Assembly (NCBI GenBank): GCA_016748015.1
Contig: JAAOMT010000525.1
Coordinates: 173,363 to 237,362, forward strand
Origin: Geosiphon pyriformis
Taxonomy: Eukaryota > Glomeromycota > Glomeromycetes > Archaeosporales > Geosiphonaceae
DNA length: 64,000 nt
Reading direction: 5' to 3'
The position numbers and the translations under genes were made by a program. The notes under the pieces were generated by a model. It made no database searches. It saw only the letters and a list, made by a program, of their open reading frames with translations, and was not told the DNA's origin. The stretch's first letter is position 1. Each line of letters begins with the position of its first letter. Below, piece by piece: positions 10,584 through 50,610 of the stretch.

Positions 10584-11078
10584 TTACATAAACTTCTTTT
10601 TAGAAGCTTTTTTCGCAGAACGTTTATAAAGTTCCCAGTAAGATGGTCTATTGTTGTTACCATTGTTATTGCCCTTAAATCCTCCTCCTACATTGTTGTT
10701 TCCATTATTTTTACCATTCTGGCTGCCAATATTTCCATTACCGTTATTGTTTCCGTTTCCTCCGAAAGCACGCTTGTCCCAATCATTACCCAAAGAATTT
10801 TTATCCTCCTCACAACGTTTAAAAAGTCCCCAAGATACTCTATTGTTGTTACCATTGTTATTGCCGTTAGATGAGCTGAGATTGTTGTTGTCATTGTTAT
10901 TGCCGTTAAATCCTCTTCCTACATTGTAGTTTCCGTTATTGTTACCATTCTAGCTGCCAATTTTACCGTTACCATTATTGTTTCCGTTTCCTCCGAAATA
11001 ATACGTCTTCTCCCGCGGATCTCCGAGCACCAGGGTGCTGGCAAACAAAATGCTAAGGCAAATGCTAGTTTTTGACAT
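10584..11078 (-). pseudogene. Secreted Asn/Gly-repeat Lys-Arg precursor, copy 1 (one internal stop)
   Basis: Read from ATG 11078-11076 to TAA 10586-10584, the frame holds 164 codons with one internal TAG at 10952-10950; the paralogues have CAG (Gln) there. Residues 1-19 (MSKTSICLSILFASTLVLG) form a signal peptide. Two Asn/Gly-rich blocks follow, separated and ended by Lys-Arg sites (WGLFKR, DWDKR, YWELYKR), the usual cleavage signal of the Golgi protease Kex2. The C-terminus is a Lys-rich tail (SAKKASKKKFM). The stop is a single G:C-to-A:T change in an otherwise intact frame, so a recent null allele, suppression or a sequencing error are all possible. Function unknown; the architecture matches Kex2-processed repeat proteins of fungi. 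Confidence 0.72.
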
Positions 11079-30958: not shown

Positions 30959-31078
30959 ACTCTTTCTTTTATTGATTCCTTGATCATAATGAGAGCATAG
31001 AGTAGTCAAAGAAATATCTTCCTTTTTCCTTATTCTCTTCTGTTCCCTTCAGTTATTTCTTTACATACACTTCTGTTC

Positions 31079-33042
31079 ATGACAATAGATCCAGTAGGCT
31101 CTTCTGCTGGTGGGTCAGCATCTGGTTTGGCTGGTGTGGGGACCCGTTCTGGCACTAAAAAGAAGGTGCGTGTTGAGAGTGTTTATGCTCGTGGTCCATC
31201 TTACAAGAAAGTGAAAAAACCTGATGATTCTGGTGTTGTTGTGGATTTGTTAGCTGGTTCTCTGCCTGTGGACATGCTACATGGTGGTGTTGACGACCAG
31301 AAGAAATCTTGGGGTAGTGAAATGAACAGCGAGGAATCAAGTGTTGGCGGGATTTCTGACATTGAGAACATGAAGAACACGATTGTGGAAGAAATGAGCT
31401 ACGTCGATTCCGATGCTTCCGAGGATGATGAACTAATGGATAATGCTATACCAAAGGATTTGAGAATGAGAACGTACGTATTTGAACACCCGTCTAAGCA
31501 GCCTTCTTTCATTGATGTGGGTGGTGCTGGCGACGTTTTGGAGCTCCTTTCTTACATGTTCAATAGATCCAATCAGTTGCTGCCAGTCGCGTCACATGAT
31601 TGGGAGATTCGGAGTTTTATTTCAGTGAAATTTTTTGCATTGGATATTGAACTTTCTGCTGTTCCTGAGAAAACTGTTAGTGATAAGTTGATTTGTGTGA
31701 AAAAAATTTTTTATCAAGTTGATGGTTTTGGGGGGGCTTCAACTCCCTCAAAATTTCCAGGAATAATAAGGTCATCATTTACATCTGAAAAAAGTTTGAT
31801 TAAGACAAAGGAAATAGCAATCAGTGAAAAAATTTTGGTAAATGATAATCTAAGAAAGTAAACAGCCATTCAGATCGGAAGGTGATCGTCAAAGAAATCC
31901 CAGTGGATCTTCTCAAATCGGCGATTGAGGCAGTGTTCTCCAAGTTTGGCAAGATTATTTCAATCAAAGTGCAGCTTATTGGTCTTTGACAAAAGGCCCT
32001 AGTGGAATATAAATCATCTGAGATAGCTGATTTGGTCGTGGCTAGATGGTCTGTGCTCATGGGAAAAGATTCCGTTCGCGTAGCAAAGGCAAGTGTTGAT
32101 AAACAAACGTGAGTATCTAGAGATCAGCATCGGGCGTTGCTTTATACTCTTCCAGTTGGCACCACTGCCCATGATTTGTCTGTATTGGTGGAGGCCTATG
32201 GTGGGAAAACTTGTTTTATTGGCCATAATTCATCTTCATATATTCGTAATCGGTGTGCTGTAATCTGTTTTGAGAGTGAGACATCTAAGTTGGCTGCTAT
32301 TGGTTCGGTTCTGGTTTTCAAGAGTGTGAATTTGCATTGGGCTGATCTATCTTTGGCCTGTTGTGCAGTATGTAAACAATTCGGTCATGTTTCTGATGTT
32401 TGTTCTATGGGTGAGAATTCTGGTGCTCACAGTAAGCAGGTGGTAACTTCTCAGGATTGGGTTCGTCTGGCTAATGTATATAGGAGGAAACAGGCTTCTA
32501 TCACTCACCCAGTTTTCTTTGGTGGCAAAACATGGGCCCAAGTTGCTAGTGGCACTTCTTTTTATGTGGTTTCTTCAGGTCTTTTTTCTGTTGGTGTTAG
32601 TTTCGGTGCAGGTTCTGCCTCGATAGAATCCTCCCCTTCTGATATCTTTGGTTTGTGCAGTTGGTTGGCAATTTTGGAATGCTCTTTGGAGCTTTTGGCA
32701 GACCGAGTTTCTGCCATTGCAAAGAAGCTGAGTTGTGTTAAGGTGGTATCTTCGAAGTCTTCTTCTCTAGCCTCTCATCCCATTGCGTCTACTTCTCTAG
32801 CCTCATGCATGGATTTGGATATAGTACTGGACGTTCTGTTGGTGGCTTCTCCTTCTTTTTGCCCTACCATTGATAATGCCAATCCTGATTTTGGTTCCAG
32901 TAGTTTGAAAGTTCTAACTGCCAAGGTTGGTGGTTTAAAGTCAAAGTTAATGGCTTTGGATGCATCAGTCGGCTCAGTGTTGGCAAGACTGAATATGTTG
33001 TGTTCTGGTTTGGGTTCTTTGGTTCTCTCGTCTTCTCAATGA
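31079..33042 (+). pseudogene. LINE ORF1 (gag-like nucleic-acid-binding protein), broken
   Basis: ATG at 31079 follows a 120-nt leader. The frame runs 260 codons to a stop at 31859-31861, where a single-base shift moves the reading to the frame that continues KVNSHSDRKVIVKEIPVDL and ends at TGA 33040-33042. In that second frame TGA stops occur at 31987 and 32110, both plausibly former Trp (TGG). The N-terminal ~130 residues are acidic and Ser/Gly rich. The middle part (KEIPVDL...FSKFGKIISIKVQL) resembles an RRM-like fold. A CCHC zinc knuckle, CAVCKQFGHVSDVC, lies near 32370-32410. The family binds LINE RNA as part of the transposition RNP. Confidence 0.88.
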
Positions 33043-36000
33043 CCGGTTTGATTTGAAAAGTTGCTACATGTAATGTTCGAGGCATAAACATTCCTGTGAA
33101 ACAAGAAGATATAGTTTGTTGGCACAAGGACATTGGAAATTTGGTTTCTATTTTTACTAAGACAAAGTTGAAGGATAAGGTTTGTCCCTAGATCACCAAC
33201 AAGTTTGATGGTGTTCGGGTGTTTTCCTCTGGTTTGGATTCTGGTTATCTGGGTGCTGGTATGGTGGTTGTTATGGACTCTTCTTTGGCAAGACATGTGT
33301 GTAGAGTTTCTGAAGTGCCTGGCCAGCTCTTGTCTGTTAGATTGCTTTTCAAGAATAAGCTCTCGGTGTTAATTCTAGGACTCTACGCTGGTGCTTCTTT
33401 GGTGGTGCGGTTTTCCCAGGCTGATGAGATTAACTCTCTTATTGCAAAGACTGTTAATAAATCTTCTTTTGTCATTCTCGGGGGTGATTTTAATGAAGAC
33501 GGTTCTCATAAAAGTGCAAGTTTCAAAAGATGCTTTGATTTGGGTCTGGTCAATTCTTTAGTTGGTAGCCCGGCTGCAAAAATGTTCACTTGAGAAAATT
33601 CTAGGAGTGTTACAAAAGTAATTAATTACATGTTTGTCTCCTCATGTTTTGTCAATGCAATAGTGCATCATAAGGTTTTGAATATCAGTGAGCATTTTGA
33701 CACAGACCATCGAGCTGTTTCAGTGGATTTGGGTTTGGATGGGCTTTTGAATACGCACTTGATTTCTCTTCGCAAGCAGGCGAATAGGGATTGTTGGAAG
33801 TTTGACATCAAAAATGCCAATGATGCTAGGTGGTTGGAGTTCAAGGATGCTTCAGCTGCTAATGTCTCTATGTTCTCAGATGTTTTTGAAGTGGCAGTGA
33901 GGTTTTCAGATGTGGACATTATGTGGGACATTGTTCGCAAGATCATGGTTCTTTCAGCGGGTGGTACATTCAAGAAAAAATGGTTCAAAGGTTTTGACGG
34001 CGTGTTTACCAGGACTTCTTCTAGGTTTCACAAACTGGAGCTGCTGGTTTCTAAGTTGGTTAAGGCCTCACATTTGGCTTCAAGTGATGGTTTTGCTTCT
34101 TTGTTAGAGATGTGGCACAGACTCAACTCTCCTGGTGCATCAGAGGTTAAGTCTCTGTTTCTTTTAGGTTCTAATTTTGATATTATTTGTTCTGCACTAG
34201 CCAAAGCGAGAAAATTGTACCGCTCTTTGAAATTTTTGGAATCCAAGCATGCTGAAAAATCTTCAATCAAGCAGGCTATTAATAAAAGAATAGAGAGTTT
34301 TGAGCTAAACAAAGGTCACACCATTAGAAGTGTTTTGGAGTGTCTTTTTCACAAGGTGGTCCTAGATTATCTGGTTGTAGAAGAAGAGTTGATTTTGGAG
34401 CCCGATTTGGTTAAGTCCAAGGTGGACGAAATTATGGAGGGATGGACCAGAAAACATGAGGTGGTGTCTGACTTCTCTGAGGATTGGGTTCATCAATTTT
34501 GGCCTCTGGATTACGTGTTCGATAGTGCTTTCTCTGATGTCATGTGCTCAATTAGTTTTAATGAGTTGTCAGCTGTTGTTAAAGATCTTCCTGATGGAAA
34601 AGCGGCTGGTCTTTCTGGTATCTCCAACGAATTGTGGAAACATTGTGACAAATCTATTTTGGATATGCTTTTGGTGCTCTTGAATTTCTGTCTGGTTGGC
34701 AAGTTGGTTCCTGGGCCTTGGAAGAAAGCTTGGGTTTCGATGATTCCTAAACCATATGAATGGGAGAGAGTTCTCACGAACACCCATCCTATAGCTTTAA
34801 TTGAAATGGCCTGCAAGATTCTTTCCAAGATCCTTTCAGATAGGATCTCTTTGGCTTGCAGCACTTTTGATGTTCTTTGTAGAGACAATTTTTCAGTTTT
34901 GAAAGGTACGATGATGCAGTCTTCCATTTTTGCTGTTGGTTCTGTAGTTGAGAATGCCTTGGAGAAGAACCGTGAACTTTGGCTGGTTTTACAGGACATG
35001 TACAAGGCTTATGACTCAGTTAGTTGGGAACATCTTAGGAGGAGTTTGATTAGGATCAAAATATGTGACAGGTTTATTAGATTTTTTGGCAGCATTCACA
35101 ATGGTCATGTCAACAGAGTGATGACTGACTTTGGTTTAACTGATGGGTATTGTGTCTATGATGGGCTGGATCAGGGTGAAGTTTTCTTGTCTTTTCTCTA
35201 GCGTATTTTTTATGATTCACTTTTGTGCGAGGTCAAGAGGCAGGAGAGTGTGTGGGGCTATAGGTTGAATTCTCATTATGTTTCTAAAATAGGCCGAGTA
35301 GATCCTCATGCTGGATTGACTTCGTTTCTTGCTGCTGGTGCTTTCGTCAATGATACTATTTGGGTTGGTAGCAGCCAGACTGCTACACAACATATTCTGA
35401 ATATTGCTAGTAAGTTTTTTAGGTTCAATAACATTTCTGTAAATAATGACAAGACAGTGGCCATTCCTATCAACTGTCAGGTGTTGGACTTTCGTTTAAC
35501 TATCAGTGGCACGCCTATTTCCATTGCCAGGAAAGGAGAATCTCATTGCTATTTGGGTATTTTTTTGTCTTTTGGGGGTCTTTTGAAGCCTAGCTTGGCT
35601 AAAGTTCAGGCTGATGTACGGTTTTTTGTGAATCTTGTTTTGAGAAAGGCGATTTTAGACAAACAGTATACATATTTAGTGTCTGCAGTTCTTTTCCCTA
35701 TTATCAGCTACAGGACTCAGTTCAGTTTTGTTTCTTTGAGTGTTTGTAGTAAATAGGACACTTTGGTATACAAGATCTTTAAGTTCAAGTCTGGGTTGCC
35801 ATGTGATTTCCCCAGTGATGCTCTTCATTATCCCTTTCTGTACAATCTAAAGACTTTCGAACAAATCCAGGCTAAGAATAAATCGGCCTCCATTATTGCT
35901 TTTGCAAATTCCACTGGTGTCTTGGGTCGCTTGTTTTCACATAGGTCTCATGACCTCCAGGTTCTCAGCTGGCATCCTTGTCATTCCTTAATGTTTCTGG

Positions 36001-37727
36001 TTTGTGTTGGTGTTAGTCTCTCAAATAATTTTTTGGCTGGTGTGGTCCGTATTTTTTCCGGGTGTGATTTGTCTTTGGGGGGCCCTCTGGCTTGTGCTTT
36101 TCATCGTTGGTATGGTACTTCTATGTCTTTGGTTCTAGGTGATTCCTGTTTTTTCAAGTGTGTTTCTTTGCTCAAGCGTTATGGGATTGCTTTTGTGGAA
36201 CAGCTTCGTGACCGTAATGGTGATGTTTTTAGTTGGAAAACCTTCAAGTGTTGGAAGAGGCTGGACCCTCGTGGCCCAGTCCCTTTCTGGTTTGATCTCT
36301 CCGTTCGCTTTCTTGGTGGTGTTGTATCTCTCTTCTCAAGTTTCTTTTTGGTGGATGGTCATGCTGTGTCTAACATTTGTCTTTCTCATGATTTTGGTGT
36401 AGTTCATGATGCTTTGCCGACCGTTGGAACTGCCCGCCTTTTTGTGTATACAGATGGATCTCTTTTTGGTCTGGGCTCTGTTGACGTGAGGATGGGTGCT
36501 GCTGTTTTTTTTAAGGACATTAACTTGGGTTTGGGTGTTGGGATGTCTGGTTTGGTTTCTTCTACTCTAATGGAGCTGCAAGTCATAGCTTTGGCTCTTG
36601 AGTGTGTTCCTTTTTCTCGTTTGGTTGACTTGTTCTCAGATAGCCAAACTGCTTTAGATACGTATAGGTCGGAATTGTCACTGGCTCATCCGGATTTCAG
36701 GAACCACTATTGGATTGAATGTTGTCACATTACTATTGTCATTTGTCAGAAGAATTTGGATGTGAATTGGGTCAAGGTGAAGGGTCACTCAGGTGTCTCA
36801 GGCAATGATCGTGCTAATGCACTTGCTAAAAATGCTATTCTCTCTGCTTGGCGCCTACCTTATTTAATCAGTGAACATTTTTTATGTGCTGGTGGTGTGG
36901 CAGTTTCTGGTAATTCTAGACACTTTGTTCGTAATGTTTTCCAGTCAGTTCATCAAGCTCGTTGGGAGGTTGGAGTGGGTTCTCGTGTCGTGAATAATAG
37001 GTTGCGTGCTGATATCAATTGGTCTAAGTCTTCTATGGTGTGGCACCCCGATTCTCACTTGGCATCCGGTTTTACCAGCATGCGCATGGCTAGCTGTCAT
37101 ACTTACTTTATGAAGGCTTTCCATCATCGGCTTTCTGTTGCTGTGCGCAAGCATTTGTATGATAGGAGATACCCCAGTGTGGTCTGTCTGTTCTGTGGTG
37201 ATGTTAAGACCTTGGATCATGTCTTTTCGTGTCCTCAGGATGCCGTTGGTCATGCTCATATGTTGGGCACTCATGCTTCAGCTTGGAAGGCTCTTTCTGG
37301 CCTGTCTTGTTCTTCTTTTTGTGTCTTACAGACTTTGGCTTCTTGTGTTTCTGAAGTTAGAATTGGTGTTGCTCTGTATAAAGGCTTTGTTTTCGATGAG
37401 TGGTTTTGTGAATCTGTCTTGGTTTTTAATGATTCTGATGAGGGTACTAAAAGGATTGTGAGCTTTGTGCATGGGTTCTGTCTTGCATTTCGGGATGACA
37501 TTTGGTTGGTCTACGCCAGACACTGAGCATTTATGGAAAAGTGCGGTCTGATTCTGCATAACGGCTCCACTTTTGTTTCAGTTTCTGGTTTGTTTAAGGT
37601 GTTTTCGGCTGGTGTAGTTAAATTGCTGGGAGTGGCTGAGGCTTTTGGAGTTGGTTTCGGGTTTCATAGATTTTGTCCATTTTTTTCAGGTATTGGAGAT
37701 TTGGTTTCTGTGCATATAGATGTATAG
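33039..37727 (+). pseudogene. LINE ORF2 (endonuclease, reverse transcriptase, RNase H, zinc finger), six stops
   Basis: The start ATG (33039) overlaps the ORF1 stop as ATGA, and all 1,563 codons stay in one frame. Stops are at 33054 TGA, 33189 TAG, 33591 TGA, 35199 TAG, 35754 TAG and 37524 TGA. Order: AP-type endonuclease (CNVRG near residue 10; GGDFNED near 33480; FDTDH near 33699), reverse transcriptase (LQDMYKAYDSVSWEHL near 34994; loop FVNDTIWVG at 35343), RNase H (FVYTDGS near 36441, ELQ, SDSQ, VKGHSGVSGNDRAN near 36777), and a Cys-Cys-His-Cys finger (CLFCGDVKTLDHVFSC near 37188). The RT loop has Asn where family members have Asp, and the endonuclease TKTKL motif has Lys where Glu is expected; both fit G-to-A changes. 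The last ~67 codons, after the 37524 stop, are still recognisable family sequence. It would nick target DNA and prime reverse transcription if repaired by nature; as it stands it is inactive. Confidence 0.93.
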
Positions 37728-47510: not shown

Positions 47511-48138
47511 CACCTAGCTGGCTACATAATTCGACTTTACTGTTGCTACCTCCGTTATTGCTTCCTCGATTGTTCTTGTTTTTACCTAAATTATTGTTGC
47601 CATTGAGATTGCCGTTACCAGAGCCAACGTTATTGTTACCATTTTTATTGGAACCAAGGTTATTGTTACCATTCGAATTGCCATTATTGGCGTCAAGGTT
47701 ATTGTTACCTTTGTATTTCCATTATTGGATCCAAGATTGTTGTTGCCGTTTCCATTGCCATTGTTGGGGCCTACATTGTTGTTACCATTAGCATTGCCAT
47801 TGTTGCTGCCGACATTTCCATTTCCATTGCAGTTTCCACTTCTATCACGTTTAATATGCTTAATAGCTTTTTCCAGAATATTAATAACTCTCCAGCCGTT
47901 ATATGGTCTTGTTACCATTGTTATTGCCGTTAAATCCGCCTCCTACATTGTTGTTTCCGTTATTTTTACCATTCTGGCTGCCAATATTTCCGTTACCGTT
48001 ATTGTTTCCGTTTCCTCCGAAAGCACGTTTATCCAAACCAGGCGACCAAGTCCTTGGATCACCACCAATCAAACCATGATCTGCGAGCACCAGTGTGTTG
48101 GCAAACAAAATGCCAAGGCAAATGCTAGTTTTTGACAT
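47467..48138 (-). pseudogene. Secreted Asn/Gly-repeat Lys-Arg precursor, copy 2 (two frameshifts)
   Basis: The ATG at 48138 opens a signal peptide (MSKTSICLGILFANTLVLA), a short spacer (DHGLIGGDPRTWSPGLDKR) and an Asn/Gly block. The frame closes at 47899, where a ~5-nt deletion relative to copy 3 disrupts the NNNRPSYW region. In the next frame the protein resumes as GWRVINILEKAIKHIKRDR plus a second Asn/Gly array (GNGNVGSNNGNANGNNN and so on), until a one-base loss near 47715. A third frame carries NNGNSNGNNNLGSNKNG through GSNSKVELCSQLGEFNLKN to TAG at 47469-47467. Unlike copy 3 there are few Lys-Arg sites. The 3' end is shared with the gene at 12.4 kb, suggesting recombination. Assembly errors in repeat DNA could mimic the frameshifts. 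Confidence 0.65.
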
Positions 48139-48438
48139 TTTTAATTCTTTGAGTGTAAAAGATTTAGAATGTTTAATTTTAGAGCTAGAAACTTTTAGTT
48201 TCTGAATTGATTGTAGAAGAAAGAGAAGCTTTTCTTCTTGATGAGATGGGCGAAAATTTAACGGGAAAGCTTTACTTTTATAAGAAATCGTTATGTTAGT
48301 TTATGATATGTTTTTTTAGAGAAGCAGTTTTGAAAACTGTGGCTTCCTTTCTTCAAAATTCATTTTCGTTAAATTTGACTTTTCATCACTTATTTGGGTA
48401 ATTTTGTGAGAACTCATATAATAAGCCCACCTGTTTTT
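48139..48438 (-). promoter_or_regulatory. Conserved upstream module with TATA box, copy 2
   Basis: Nearly identical to 11079-11378. TATAAAAG lies on the minus strand at 48282-48275, 137 nt before the ATG, the same spacing as copy 1. The module is cut off by the assembly gap. Confidence 0.7.
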
Positions 48439-49278
48439 NNNNNNNNNNNNNNNNNNNNNNNNNNNNNNNNNNNNNNNNNNNNNNNNNNNNNNNNNNNNNN
48501 NNNNNNNNNNNNNNNNNNNNNNNNNNNNNNNNNNNNNNNNNNNNNNNNNNNNNNNNNNNNNNNNNNNNNNNNNNNNNNNNNNNNNNNNNNNNNNNNNNNN
48601 NNNNNNNNNNNNNNNNNNNNNNNNNNNNNNNNNNNNNNNNNNNNNNNNNNNNNNNNNNNNNNNNNNNNNNNNNNNNNNNNNNNNNNNNNNNNNNNNNNNN
48701 NNNNNNNNNNNNNNNNNNNNNNNNNNNNNNNNNNNNNNNNNNNNNNNNNNNNNNNNNNNNNNNNNNNNNNNNNNNNNNNNNNNNNNNNNNNNNNNNNNNN
48801 NNNNNNNNNNNNNNNNNNNNNNNNNNNNNNNNNNNNNNNNNNNNNNNNNNNNNNNNNNNNNNNNNNNNNNNNNNNNNNNNNNNNNNNNNNNNNNNNNNNN
48901 NNNNNNNNNNNNNNNNNNNNNNNNNNNNNNNNNNNNNNNNNNNNNNNNNNNNNNNNNNNNNNNNNNNNNNNNNNNNNNNNNNNNNNNNNNNNNNNNNNNN
49001 NNNNNNNNNNNNNNNNNNNNNNNNNNNNNNNNNNNNNNNNNNNNNNNNNNNNNNNNNNNNNNNNNNNNNNNNNNNNNNNNNNNNNNNNNNNNNNNNNNNN
49101 NNNNNNNNNNNNNNNNNNNNNNNNNNNNNNNNNNNNNNNNNNNNNNNNNNNNNNNNNNNNNNNNNNNNNNNNNNNNNNNNNNNNNNNNNNNNNNNNNNNN
49201 NNNNNNNNNNNNNNNNNNNNNNNNNNNNNNNNNNNNNNNNNNNNNNNNNNNNNNNNNNNNNNNNNNNNNNNNNNNNNN
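48439..49278. other. Assembly gap (840 N)
   Basis: Unresolved bases between the upstream module of copy 2 and the Asn/Gly array of copy 3. It must contain the 3' end of copy 3. A nearby tandem repeat with near-identical units makes gap size and content unreliable. Open frames drawn through the N run are artefacts. Confidence 0.98.
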
Positions 49279-50307
49279 GGAGCCAAGGTTATTGTTACCA
49301 TTAGCATTGCCATTATTGGCGCCAAGGTTATTGTTACCATTTTTATTTCCATTATTGGATCCAAGATTGTTGTTGCCGTTTCCATTGCCATTGTTGGCGC
49401 CTACATTGTTGTTACCATTAGCATTGCCATTGTTGCTACCGACATTTCCATTTCCATTGCCGTTACCACTTCCATCACGTTTATACAAATCACGTTTATA
49501 CCAGTAAGATGGTCTATTGTTGTTACCATTGCTATTGCCATTAGATGAGCCGCGATTGTTGTTACCATTGTTATTGCCGTTAAATCCTCCTCCTAGATTG
49601 TTGTTTCCGTTATTGTTTCCATTGTTGCCGCCAATGTTTCCGTTACCGTTATTGTTTCCGTTACCTCCACGTTTATACTCATCACGTTTATACAAATCAC
49701 GTTTTTCCTCCTCATCACGTTTATACAAACCACGTTTATATTTACCCCAACGTTTTTCCTCCTCATCACGTTTATACCAGTAAGATGGTCTATTGTTGTT
49801 ACCATTGCTATTGCCATTATATGAGCCAAGATTGTTGTTACCATTGCTATTGCCGTTAAATCCTCCTCCTAGATTGTTGTTTCCGTTATTGTTTCCATTG
49901 TTGCCGCCAATGTTTCCGTTACCATTATTGTTTCCGTTACCTCCACGTTTATACTCATCACGTTTATATTTACCCCAACGTTTTTCTTCCTCATCACGTT
50001 TATACAAACCACGTTTATATTTACCCCAACGTTTTTCCTCCTCATCACGTTTATACCAGTAAGATGGTCTATTGTTGTTACCATTGCTATTGCCATTATA
50101 TGAGCCAAGATTGTTGTTACCATTGCTATTGCCGTTAAATCCTCCTCCTAAATTGTTGTTTCCGTTATTGTTTCCATTCTGGCTGCCAATGTTTCCGTTA
50201 CCGTTATTGTTTCCGTTACCTCCGCGTTTATCCCAACGAGGAAATGGCTCTCCGAGCACCAGGGTGCTGACAAATAAAATGCTAAGGCAAATGCCAGTTT
50301 TTGACAT
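49279..50307 (-). CDS. Secreted Asn/Gly-repeat, Kex2-type peptide precursor, copy 3 (3' end in gap)
   Basis: The best-preserved member: 343 codons from ATG 50307 with no stop before the gap. Residues 1-19 are a signal peptide; WDKR (25-28) would release the propeptide. Residues 29-121 and 122-213 are two near-identical units of 93 and 92 residues, followed by a shorter 64-residue unit (214-277) and a further Asn/Gly array. Each unit is a ~55-residue Asn/Gly block ending NNRPSYWYKR, followed in the first two by short peptides between Lys-Arg sites: DEEE, WGKY, GLY, DEEE, WGKY or DLY, DEY. This fits fungal Kex2-processed repeat proteins, whose products include pheromones, repellent-like wall peptides and RiPP cores. 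Which product is made here is unknown. No modifying enzyme (for example UstYa-type) is seen in the window. Confidence 0.82.
49477..50223 (-). repeat. Coding tandem repeat, 279/276/192 bp units
   Basis: Unit 1 at 50223-49945, unit 2 at 49944-49669 (one codon shorter: WGKYKR replaced by DLYKR) and unit 3 at 49668-49477 (lacking the DEEE/WGKY cluster). Nucleotide identity between units 1 and 2 is very high, including synonymous sites, suggesting recent duplication or homogenisation. Confidence 0.9.
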
Positions 50308-50610
50308 TTTTAATTCTTTGAGTGTAAAAGATTTAGAAAGAGAAGCTTTTCTTCTTGATGAGATGGGTAAAAATTTAACGGGAAAGCTTTACTTTTATAA
50401 GAAATTGTTTTGCTAGTAAATTATATGTTTTTTTAGAGAAACAGTTTTGAAAACTGTGGCTTCCTTTCTTCAAAATTCATTTTCGTTAAATTTGACTTTT
50501 CATCACTTATTTGAGTAATTTTGTGAGAACTCATATAATAAGCCCACCTGTTTTTCCTCTAATAATAATAATGGAACAAAATGATTGATTATCTAAAATT
50601 TGAGATCCAA
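50308..50610 (-). promoter_or_regulatory. Conserved upstream module with TATA box, copy 3
   Basis: Homologous to the modules of copies 1 and 2 but with a deletion of about 52-55 bp between gatttagaa and agagaagct, which brings TATAAAAG (minus strand, 50399-50392) to 85 nt from the ATG. Homology ends near gagatccaa at about 50610. Confidence 0.72.

Follow-up and report, generated by a model that had tools for sequence, protein, structure and literature searches.

A predicted Kex2-processed repeat precursor in an Asn/Gly-rich protein family of Geosiphon pyriformis

A gene in a 64,000-nucleotide window of Geosiphon pyriformis DNA (the window being the whole stretch analysed) encodes a precursor with a leader-like N-terminus, followed by Asn/Gly-rich blocks and clusters of very short peptides set off by Lys-Arg (KR) pairs. 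The KR pattern recurs in paralogues, the genome carries protease genes of the Kex2-like and Ste13-like kinds, and the gene belongs to a family. We judge the chances about evenly balanced that its product is a Kex2-processed repeat protein whose blocks are the main, surface-assembling product, most likely one related to the GpRIC proteins; within this explanation secretion, cleavage, trimming, assembly and location are predicted from sequence.

The gene (copy A) lies on the minus strand, with residues 1-343 running from 50307 down to 49279. The ATG occupies 50307-50305, and the frame is open without a stop to 49279, at the onset of an assembly gap (Table 1). Each of three units comprises an Asn/Gly block of about 50 residues followed by RPSYWYKR. 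The cassette of unit 1 reads RPSYWYKR DEEEKR WGKYKR GLYKR DEEEKR WGKYKR DEYKR, and that of unit 2 holds DEEE, WGKY, GLY, DEEE, DLY and DEY between KR pairs, so that both carry six very short peptides; unit 3 carries DLY alone. All of the peptides named in the original prediction are present (DEEE four times, WGKY three times, GLY, DEY and DLY twice each). At the DNA level, a 279-bp unit is repeated in 2.7 copies with 95% match, and a 39-bp unit in 3.9 copies before the gap. A 663-aa ORF spanning the gap was rejected as a single protein and is an artefact, as the letters past the gap belong to the upstream region, likewise duplicated, of a second copy; the same 39 bases are found at 48400, 50517 and 11340.

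Table 1 Features of the precursor gene and its neighbouring copies in the window.
Feature	Position in window	Strand	Basis or remark
Coding region, precursor residues 1-343	49279..50307	-	3' end inside assembly gap
Hydrophobic leader MSKTGICLSILFVSTLVLG, probable signal peptide, residues 1-19	50251..50307	-	By eye; paralogue leaders similar
Pro-segment EPFPRWDKR, closing with the first KR, residues 20-28	50224..50250	-	Translation
Unit 1: Asn/Gly block and cassette, residues 29-121 (93 residues)	49945..50223	-	DNA repeat and translation
Unit 2: Asn/Gly block and cassette, residues 122-213 (92 residues)	49669..49944	-	DNA repeat and translation
Unit 3: Asn/Gly block and short cassette RPSYWYKR DLYKR, residues 214-277 (64 residues)	49477..49668	-	Translation
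Start of 39-bp/13-residue array, LGSNNGNxNGNNN type, residues 278-343	49279..49476	-	DNA repeat and translation
Assembly gap, 840 N, covering the 3' end of the gene	48439..49278	.	Sequence
Upstream region	50308..50607	-	95-99% identity over aligned columns to upstream of C, D and E
Second copy (E), broken, 79-residue ORF	47899..48138	-	ORF list and search
Third window copy (D, contig 184440), broken: in-frame TAG after residue 42	10587..11078	-	Genome search

In 10,000 residue shuffles, the number of KR pairs averaged 1.43 and never exceeded 6, against 17 in the precursor. These pairs take up 17 of the 21 Lys and 17 of the 22 Arg beyond residue 19, falling both at unit borders and inside the cassettes. 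The tandem Asn/Gly and Lys-Arg units of the original prediction are confirmed, as three units, although the 17 pairs do not amount to 17 independent events, the units being duplicates of one another. For the same reason, more independent evidence on KR comes from diverged paralogues.

In the proposed pathway, the leader would direct the precursor into the secretory pathway, where a Kex2-type protease would cut after Lys-Arg, first releasing the short pro-segment and thereby fixing the N-terminus of the Asn/Gly block. Later cuts would part the blocks from one another and from the cassettes of 3-4-residue peptides, followed by trimming of the basic residues by a carboxypeptidase. The predicted block product would begin GGNGNNNGNGNIG and end RPSYWY. 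The blocks, built on N-G-N-x-N-G-N-x-N-x-G-x-x, would be the principal product, probably assembling at the surface or wall of the hyphae. The tiny Tyr-containing and acidic peptides would serve as linkers or as secondary products in the form of linear peptides. The genome contains a Kex2-like locus (on C270) with matches to Peptidase_S8 (42.7 bits) and P_proprotein (52.3 bits) in successive ORF pieces; together with a membrane segment and tail seen by eye, these give the Kex2/furin plan. Ste13-like DPPIV_N matches are found on C271. Modelled alone with AlphaFold, the window protein yielded no structure (mean pLDDT 35), and it is possible that GN-rich sequence of this kind is just disordered. 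Two short ORFs that look alike, with sub-threshold matches to Big_7, lie 2-4 kb downstream of copy B, a complete copy on the contig (C242:256102-256500, minus strand, and 258450-258803, plus strand); we take them to resemble cell-wall Kre9-like proteins.

The family was collected by searching the Geosiphon genome (124.7 Mb, 406 contigs) with a DNA query, giving 71 matches, and with a leader-plus-block protein query, giving 40 matches at E<=10. The working set comprises 25 members with an assigned start; it is not a census, and some loci were fetched by hand. It includes two broken copies, one member with Val at the position of the start Met, and copy C, which enters a gap. Four loci were left out: C402 and C112:20k, with a block but no clear leader, and C242:153850 and C101, in which the filter found no block. 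Further matched loci outside the 25 are C271:11k, C327 and C378:235k (protein query) and C268, C277:331k and C389:379-380k (DNA query). As all 25 members were found with queries holding the Asn/Gly block, the presence of the block is partly built into the set.

Five close copies lie on the contig of the window (C242): A, B (252721), C (308093), D (184440) and E (221500), with A, D and E inside the window. Copy B is complete and gap-free, encoding 496 aa. In copy E, Asn/Gly remnants persist in other reading frames as far as about 47530. Over aligned columns, identity among the upstream regions of A, C, D and E is 95-99%, with about 52 extra bases near the ATG in D and E; that of B is mostly gap. 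Two more GN-repeat genes were noted at C242:240158 and 242740 (both minus strand); a single KR precedes the block in one of them, and none in the other. The contig carries at least seven family members.

Elsewhere in the genome, the L030 (C286) and L031 (C241) proteins have GN caps at both ends of a Thr/Val/Pro-rich middle and no KR, indicating that the GN module also exists outside Kex2 precursors. In another protein (L048, C354:144860), the C-terminal region after the GN module is rich in aromatic residues and less repetitive. Pfam searches gave no match for four fungal family proteins (three, then one more), and no convincing match was obtained in NCBIfam, PHROGs or a PDB sequence search. 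Two scans of viral contigs yielded no confirmed relative, and a literature lookup of the motif strings returned an unrelated match only.

In 17 of 25 family members, the first Asn/Gly block is preceded within 4 residues by a [KR]R pair, a count that includes C354:300k (scored by eye, as the pattern missed it) and the broken copy E; two members have a single Arg only before the block, and six have no basic site. Nine codon pairs encode KR across members (AAACGT, AAACGC, AAGAGA, AAAAGA, AAGCGC, AAGAGG, AAACGA, AAAAGG and AAACGG), and because the codons differ, the dibasic site before the block looks to be kept at the protein level. All ten pairs compared by the Nei-Gojobori method had dN/dS below 1, ranging from 0.16 to 0.72 (A-B 0.16, A-C 0.23, B-C 0.72, G-H 0.42, K-L 0.57, U-V 0.25, I-K 0.23, I-L 0.40, P-Q 0.34 and A-E 0.34), with the caveats that B-C and K-L have very few synonymous changes and that repeats may align out of register. 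The 13-residue unit N-G-N-x-N-G-N-x-N-x-G-x-x occurs in 23 of 25 members, at an exact spacing of 13 in 166 of 198 listed spacings. Asn fills positions 3 and 7, which were free in the search pattern, at frequencies of 0.96 and 0.97; at position 10, Ile, Leu and Val together account for 0.56.

These data bear on the view that the array is a coding minisatellite drifting without function. Two of the five close copies on the contig are broken, unit number varies, and the upstream sequence is better kept (95-99%) than the coding sequence, in which the broken copies match A at 74 and 76%, as drift would have it. However, the dN/dS values, the retention of KR despite codon changes, and the in-frame units of copies A and B argue for constraint on the protein, and we regard functionless drift as very unlikely. 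The original prediction had named a lack of conserved Lys-Arg spacing in orthologues and neutral, minisatellite-like evolution as signs against itself; among paralogues, where the comparison was made, the dibasic sites recur and the coding arrays look non-neutral. Its Kex2 precursor is borne out as a prediction by the leader, the KR spacing, the dibasic sites of 17 of 25 members, the dN/dS values below 1, and the Kex2-like and DPPIV-type genes.

We next weighed the two classes of peptide as the product. That the Asn/Gly blocks are the main one, as in Ustilago Rep1, we hold at roughly even chances, a confidence lowered by the recruitment of the members through that same block. In the C95 and C387 members, KR mainly separates Asn/Gly blocks of about 90 residues. 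The main rival, possible but doubtful, is that the short Tyr peptides (DLY, DEY, GLY, WGKY and the DPQEY/DPLLY kind in one paralogue) are the functional product, serving as linear secreted signals that are pheromone-like or aimed at the symbiotic partner, with the blocks as carriers. Their recurrence in diverged paralogues suggests that Tyr-ending peptides may be selected: DLY is present in A, B, C and a diverged C389 member, D-x-Y before KR recurs in diverged members, and Tyr or Trp directly precedes 52 of 95 KR pairs in the 25 members, a count inflated by near-identical copies. Among 17 distinct short peptides, 10 end in Tyr. In members I and J, DP follows KR, which fits removal of XP by a Ste13-type enzyme, and a DPPIV_N gene exists. 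Published passages likewise describe the KEP peptides of R. irregularis as Tyr-rich with STE13 signatures (Le Marquer 2019), and linear KEP peptides, several ending in Trp, as detected in mushrooms (PMC9769878).

Against the short peptides as product, peptides of 14 residues or fewer between KR pairs are limited to 8 of 25 members (copies A, B and C and members I, J, K, L and V), and the exact WGKY/DEEE cassette is restricted to three near-identical copies on this contig. A search with the 42-residue cassette alone, which is free of block sequence and so lifts the recruitment bias solely for close relatives of the cassette, hit five places, each of them within copy A, B or C. The WGKY/DEEE cassette therefore appears young or fast-changing, while the block is widespread. 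In addition, DEEE and QEE look like spacers, and 3-4 residues is at the bottom of the KEP size range (3-352) given in the published text available.

The original prediction had also proposed a RiPP precursor, on the model of the dikaritins; in that reading, the Tyr cores would be cyclised by UstYa proteins. The precursor plan and the Tyr cores fit such a scheme. A whole-genome search for UstYa (PF11807) gave no match at E<=1, a result that is uncalibrated, as 14 control genomes also gave none. In about 143 kb of contig C242, three ORFs carry one HxxHC, which we take to be the UstYa-type motif, and none was reported with two. Cyclisation is posed as an open question for R. irregularis in the accessible part of Le Marquer 2019. 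In that of Umemura 2020 (PMC7329392), DUF3328 neighbours are recorded for 0 of 357 Mucoromycota KEPs, and DUF3328 proteins are described as absent from the six phyla other than Ascomycota and Basidiomycota. The dikaritin proposal is thus left unsupported, and we consider it highly improbable.

A further alternative, which we rate as unlikely, is that the product is an AGL-like disordered protein, secreted or linked to the wall, with no Kex2 cleavage. Glomeromycotina AGLs are described as secreted, repeat-rich and clustered in the genome, with a variable mature part and conserved signal sequences (passages of PMC8786786). However, dibasic sites recur among members of the present family, and the complete copy B ends ...NNGGGNGNNNR with, by eye, no hydrophobic tail for a GPI anchor. 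Rhizophagus AGLs are characterized, in the text available, as Pro/Gly/Ala-rich, whereas the 343 residues here include 5 Pro and 4 Ala, along with 76 Gly and 110 Asn.

The Kex2-processed repeat reading has closer counterparts. GN-rich, KR-containing proteins have been reported from Geosiphon itself, and GN-rich proteins from Ambispora and Paraglomus as well (excerpts of PMC8786786). The same excerpts give GpRIC1-3 (MH580277-9) as originating in the Hoffrichter 2018 thesis; likened by description, these GN-rich, KR-containing proteins resemble gene A and are probably relatives of this family, with three cDNAs in print in the portion available versus 25 assigned members here. The precursor shares with KEPs (Le Marquer 2019, Umemura 2020) the repeats and the dibasic sites between them, and by eye it has a probable leader as they do, but it differs in having two predicted product classes, Asn/Gly blocks of about 57 residues and cassettes of 3-4-residue peptides. 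Rep1 of Ustilago maydis, again likened by description from partial text, similarly has Kex2-separated blocks of tens of residues; its peptides are described there as amphipathic, whereas the blocks here are Asn/Gly-rich. SP7-type proteins of Rhizophagus irregularis offer, by description in part of PMC5293756, another Glomeromycotan secreted protein with repeats starting [KR]R. As far as the accessible text goes, KEPs, Rhizophagus Tyr-rich products, the cyclisation question and Geosiphon GN-rich KR proteins are already in print (PMC6339444, PMC8786786). In the open-licence literature, few searches of which were on point, the family size, the dibasic-before-block rule, the double product plan and a bacterial module were not found.

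Relatives of the 13-residue module were sought in bacterial and archaeal genomes. Among the matches listed, at least one was confirmed as a relative: an ORF of 186 residues in Geminicoccus flavidas, with a leader, a NGNGNGNGNGNIG cap and 13-residue units. When this protein served as query, 2 of the 385 genomes of the class gave a match, as did 2 of the 31 of the family, with its own genome counted in both figures; a plasmid search gave none with this protein. Secreted-looking GN-rich ORFs with the 13-residue unit were noted in Alphaproteobacterial sequences (L057 1180..2654, L061 1291..2883 and L060 1237..1806), and both Geminicoccus and genome G389 have three GN-rich ORFs in a row. The Geminicoccus-type ORFs of Alphaproteobacteria resemble the fungal members in their leader, NGNGNGNGNIG-type N-terminal cap and 13-residue unit, but their leaders are bacterial and the ORFs inspected have no KR cassettes.

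With a custom 13-position score built from the fungal units, seven of eight bacterial ORFs scored above every one of 2,000 residue shuffles and 2,000 dimer shuffles. The eighth, a second Geminicoccus ORF with a sub-threshold Pentapeptide_2 match in Pfam, did not. The best 60-residue ungapped window between a fungal and a bacterial protein was identical at 53 of 60 positions (the C247 member and a G389 ORF, the highest of all pairs). In 231 fungal pairs (22 members), the median best window was 36/60, and it was the same in the 192 fungal-bacterial pairs, from 25 members and 8 ORFs, that gave a result. The G+C content near the bacterial genes is 56-66% versus 32% at the fungal C247 locus, which makes contamination unlikely. 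From the sequences, shared descent, transfer and convergence of simple repeats are all possible sources of the likeness. Around the bacterial genes, eight neighbouring ORFs had no Pfam match at E<=0.001, a result that is uninformative as the frames were picked by length.

The Geminicoccus protein modelled alone reached a mean pLDDT of 50 and a pTM of 0.39, with some short strands starting 13 or 26 residues apart, and had no PDB match at E<=10. A structural claim for the module was set aside, as the models are too weak on both the fungal (pLDDT 35) and the bacterial side. A broader joint reading, which strikes us as rather unlikely, would make the module a repeat that is secreted and assembles by itself, perhaps as a beta-solenoid in which each unit forms one coil, and that passed between Alphaproteobacteria of the soil and a Glomeromycotan fungus of an early-diverging lineage. 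It would then have expanded to dozens of fungal genes, some gaining Kex2 cassettes, so that one precursor could supply both building blocks of a surface fibre and D-x-Y peptides directed toward the cyanobacterial partner.

The rDNA of this genome carries one mismatch to each of the Glomeromycotan primers AML1, AML2 and SSUmAf2, two to ARCH1311 and four to AM1, a primer that misses early-diverging lineages. Geosiphon partners with the cyanobacterium Nostoc, and the root-colonisation setting in which the original prediction had placed expression of the gene is probably wrong. If processed as predicted, the family would be expected to release defined Asn/Gly blocks and short peptides, which are concrete molecules to seek at the fungus-Nostoc boundary. 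The secreted-looking bacterial match would offer a simpler bacterial model for the role of the module, and raises the question whether genes were transferred between bacteria of the soil and a symbiotic fungus. Elsewhere in the window, a LINE-like element at 31001-37523 consists of several ORF pieces with reverse transcriptase and RNase H Pfam matches; its G+C content is about 42%, and that of its flanks about 13-17%.
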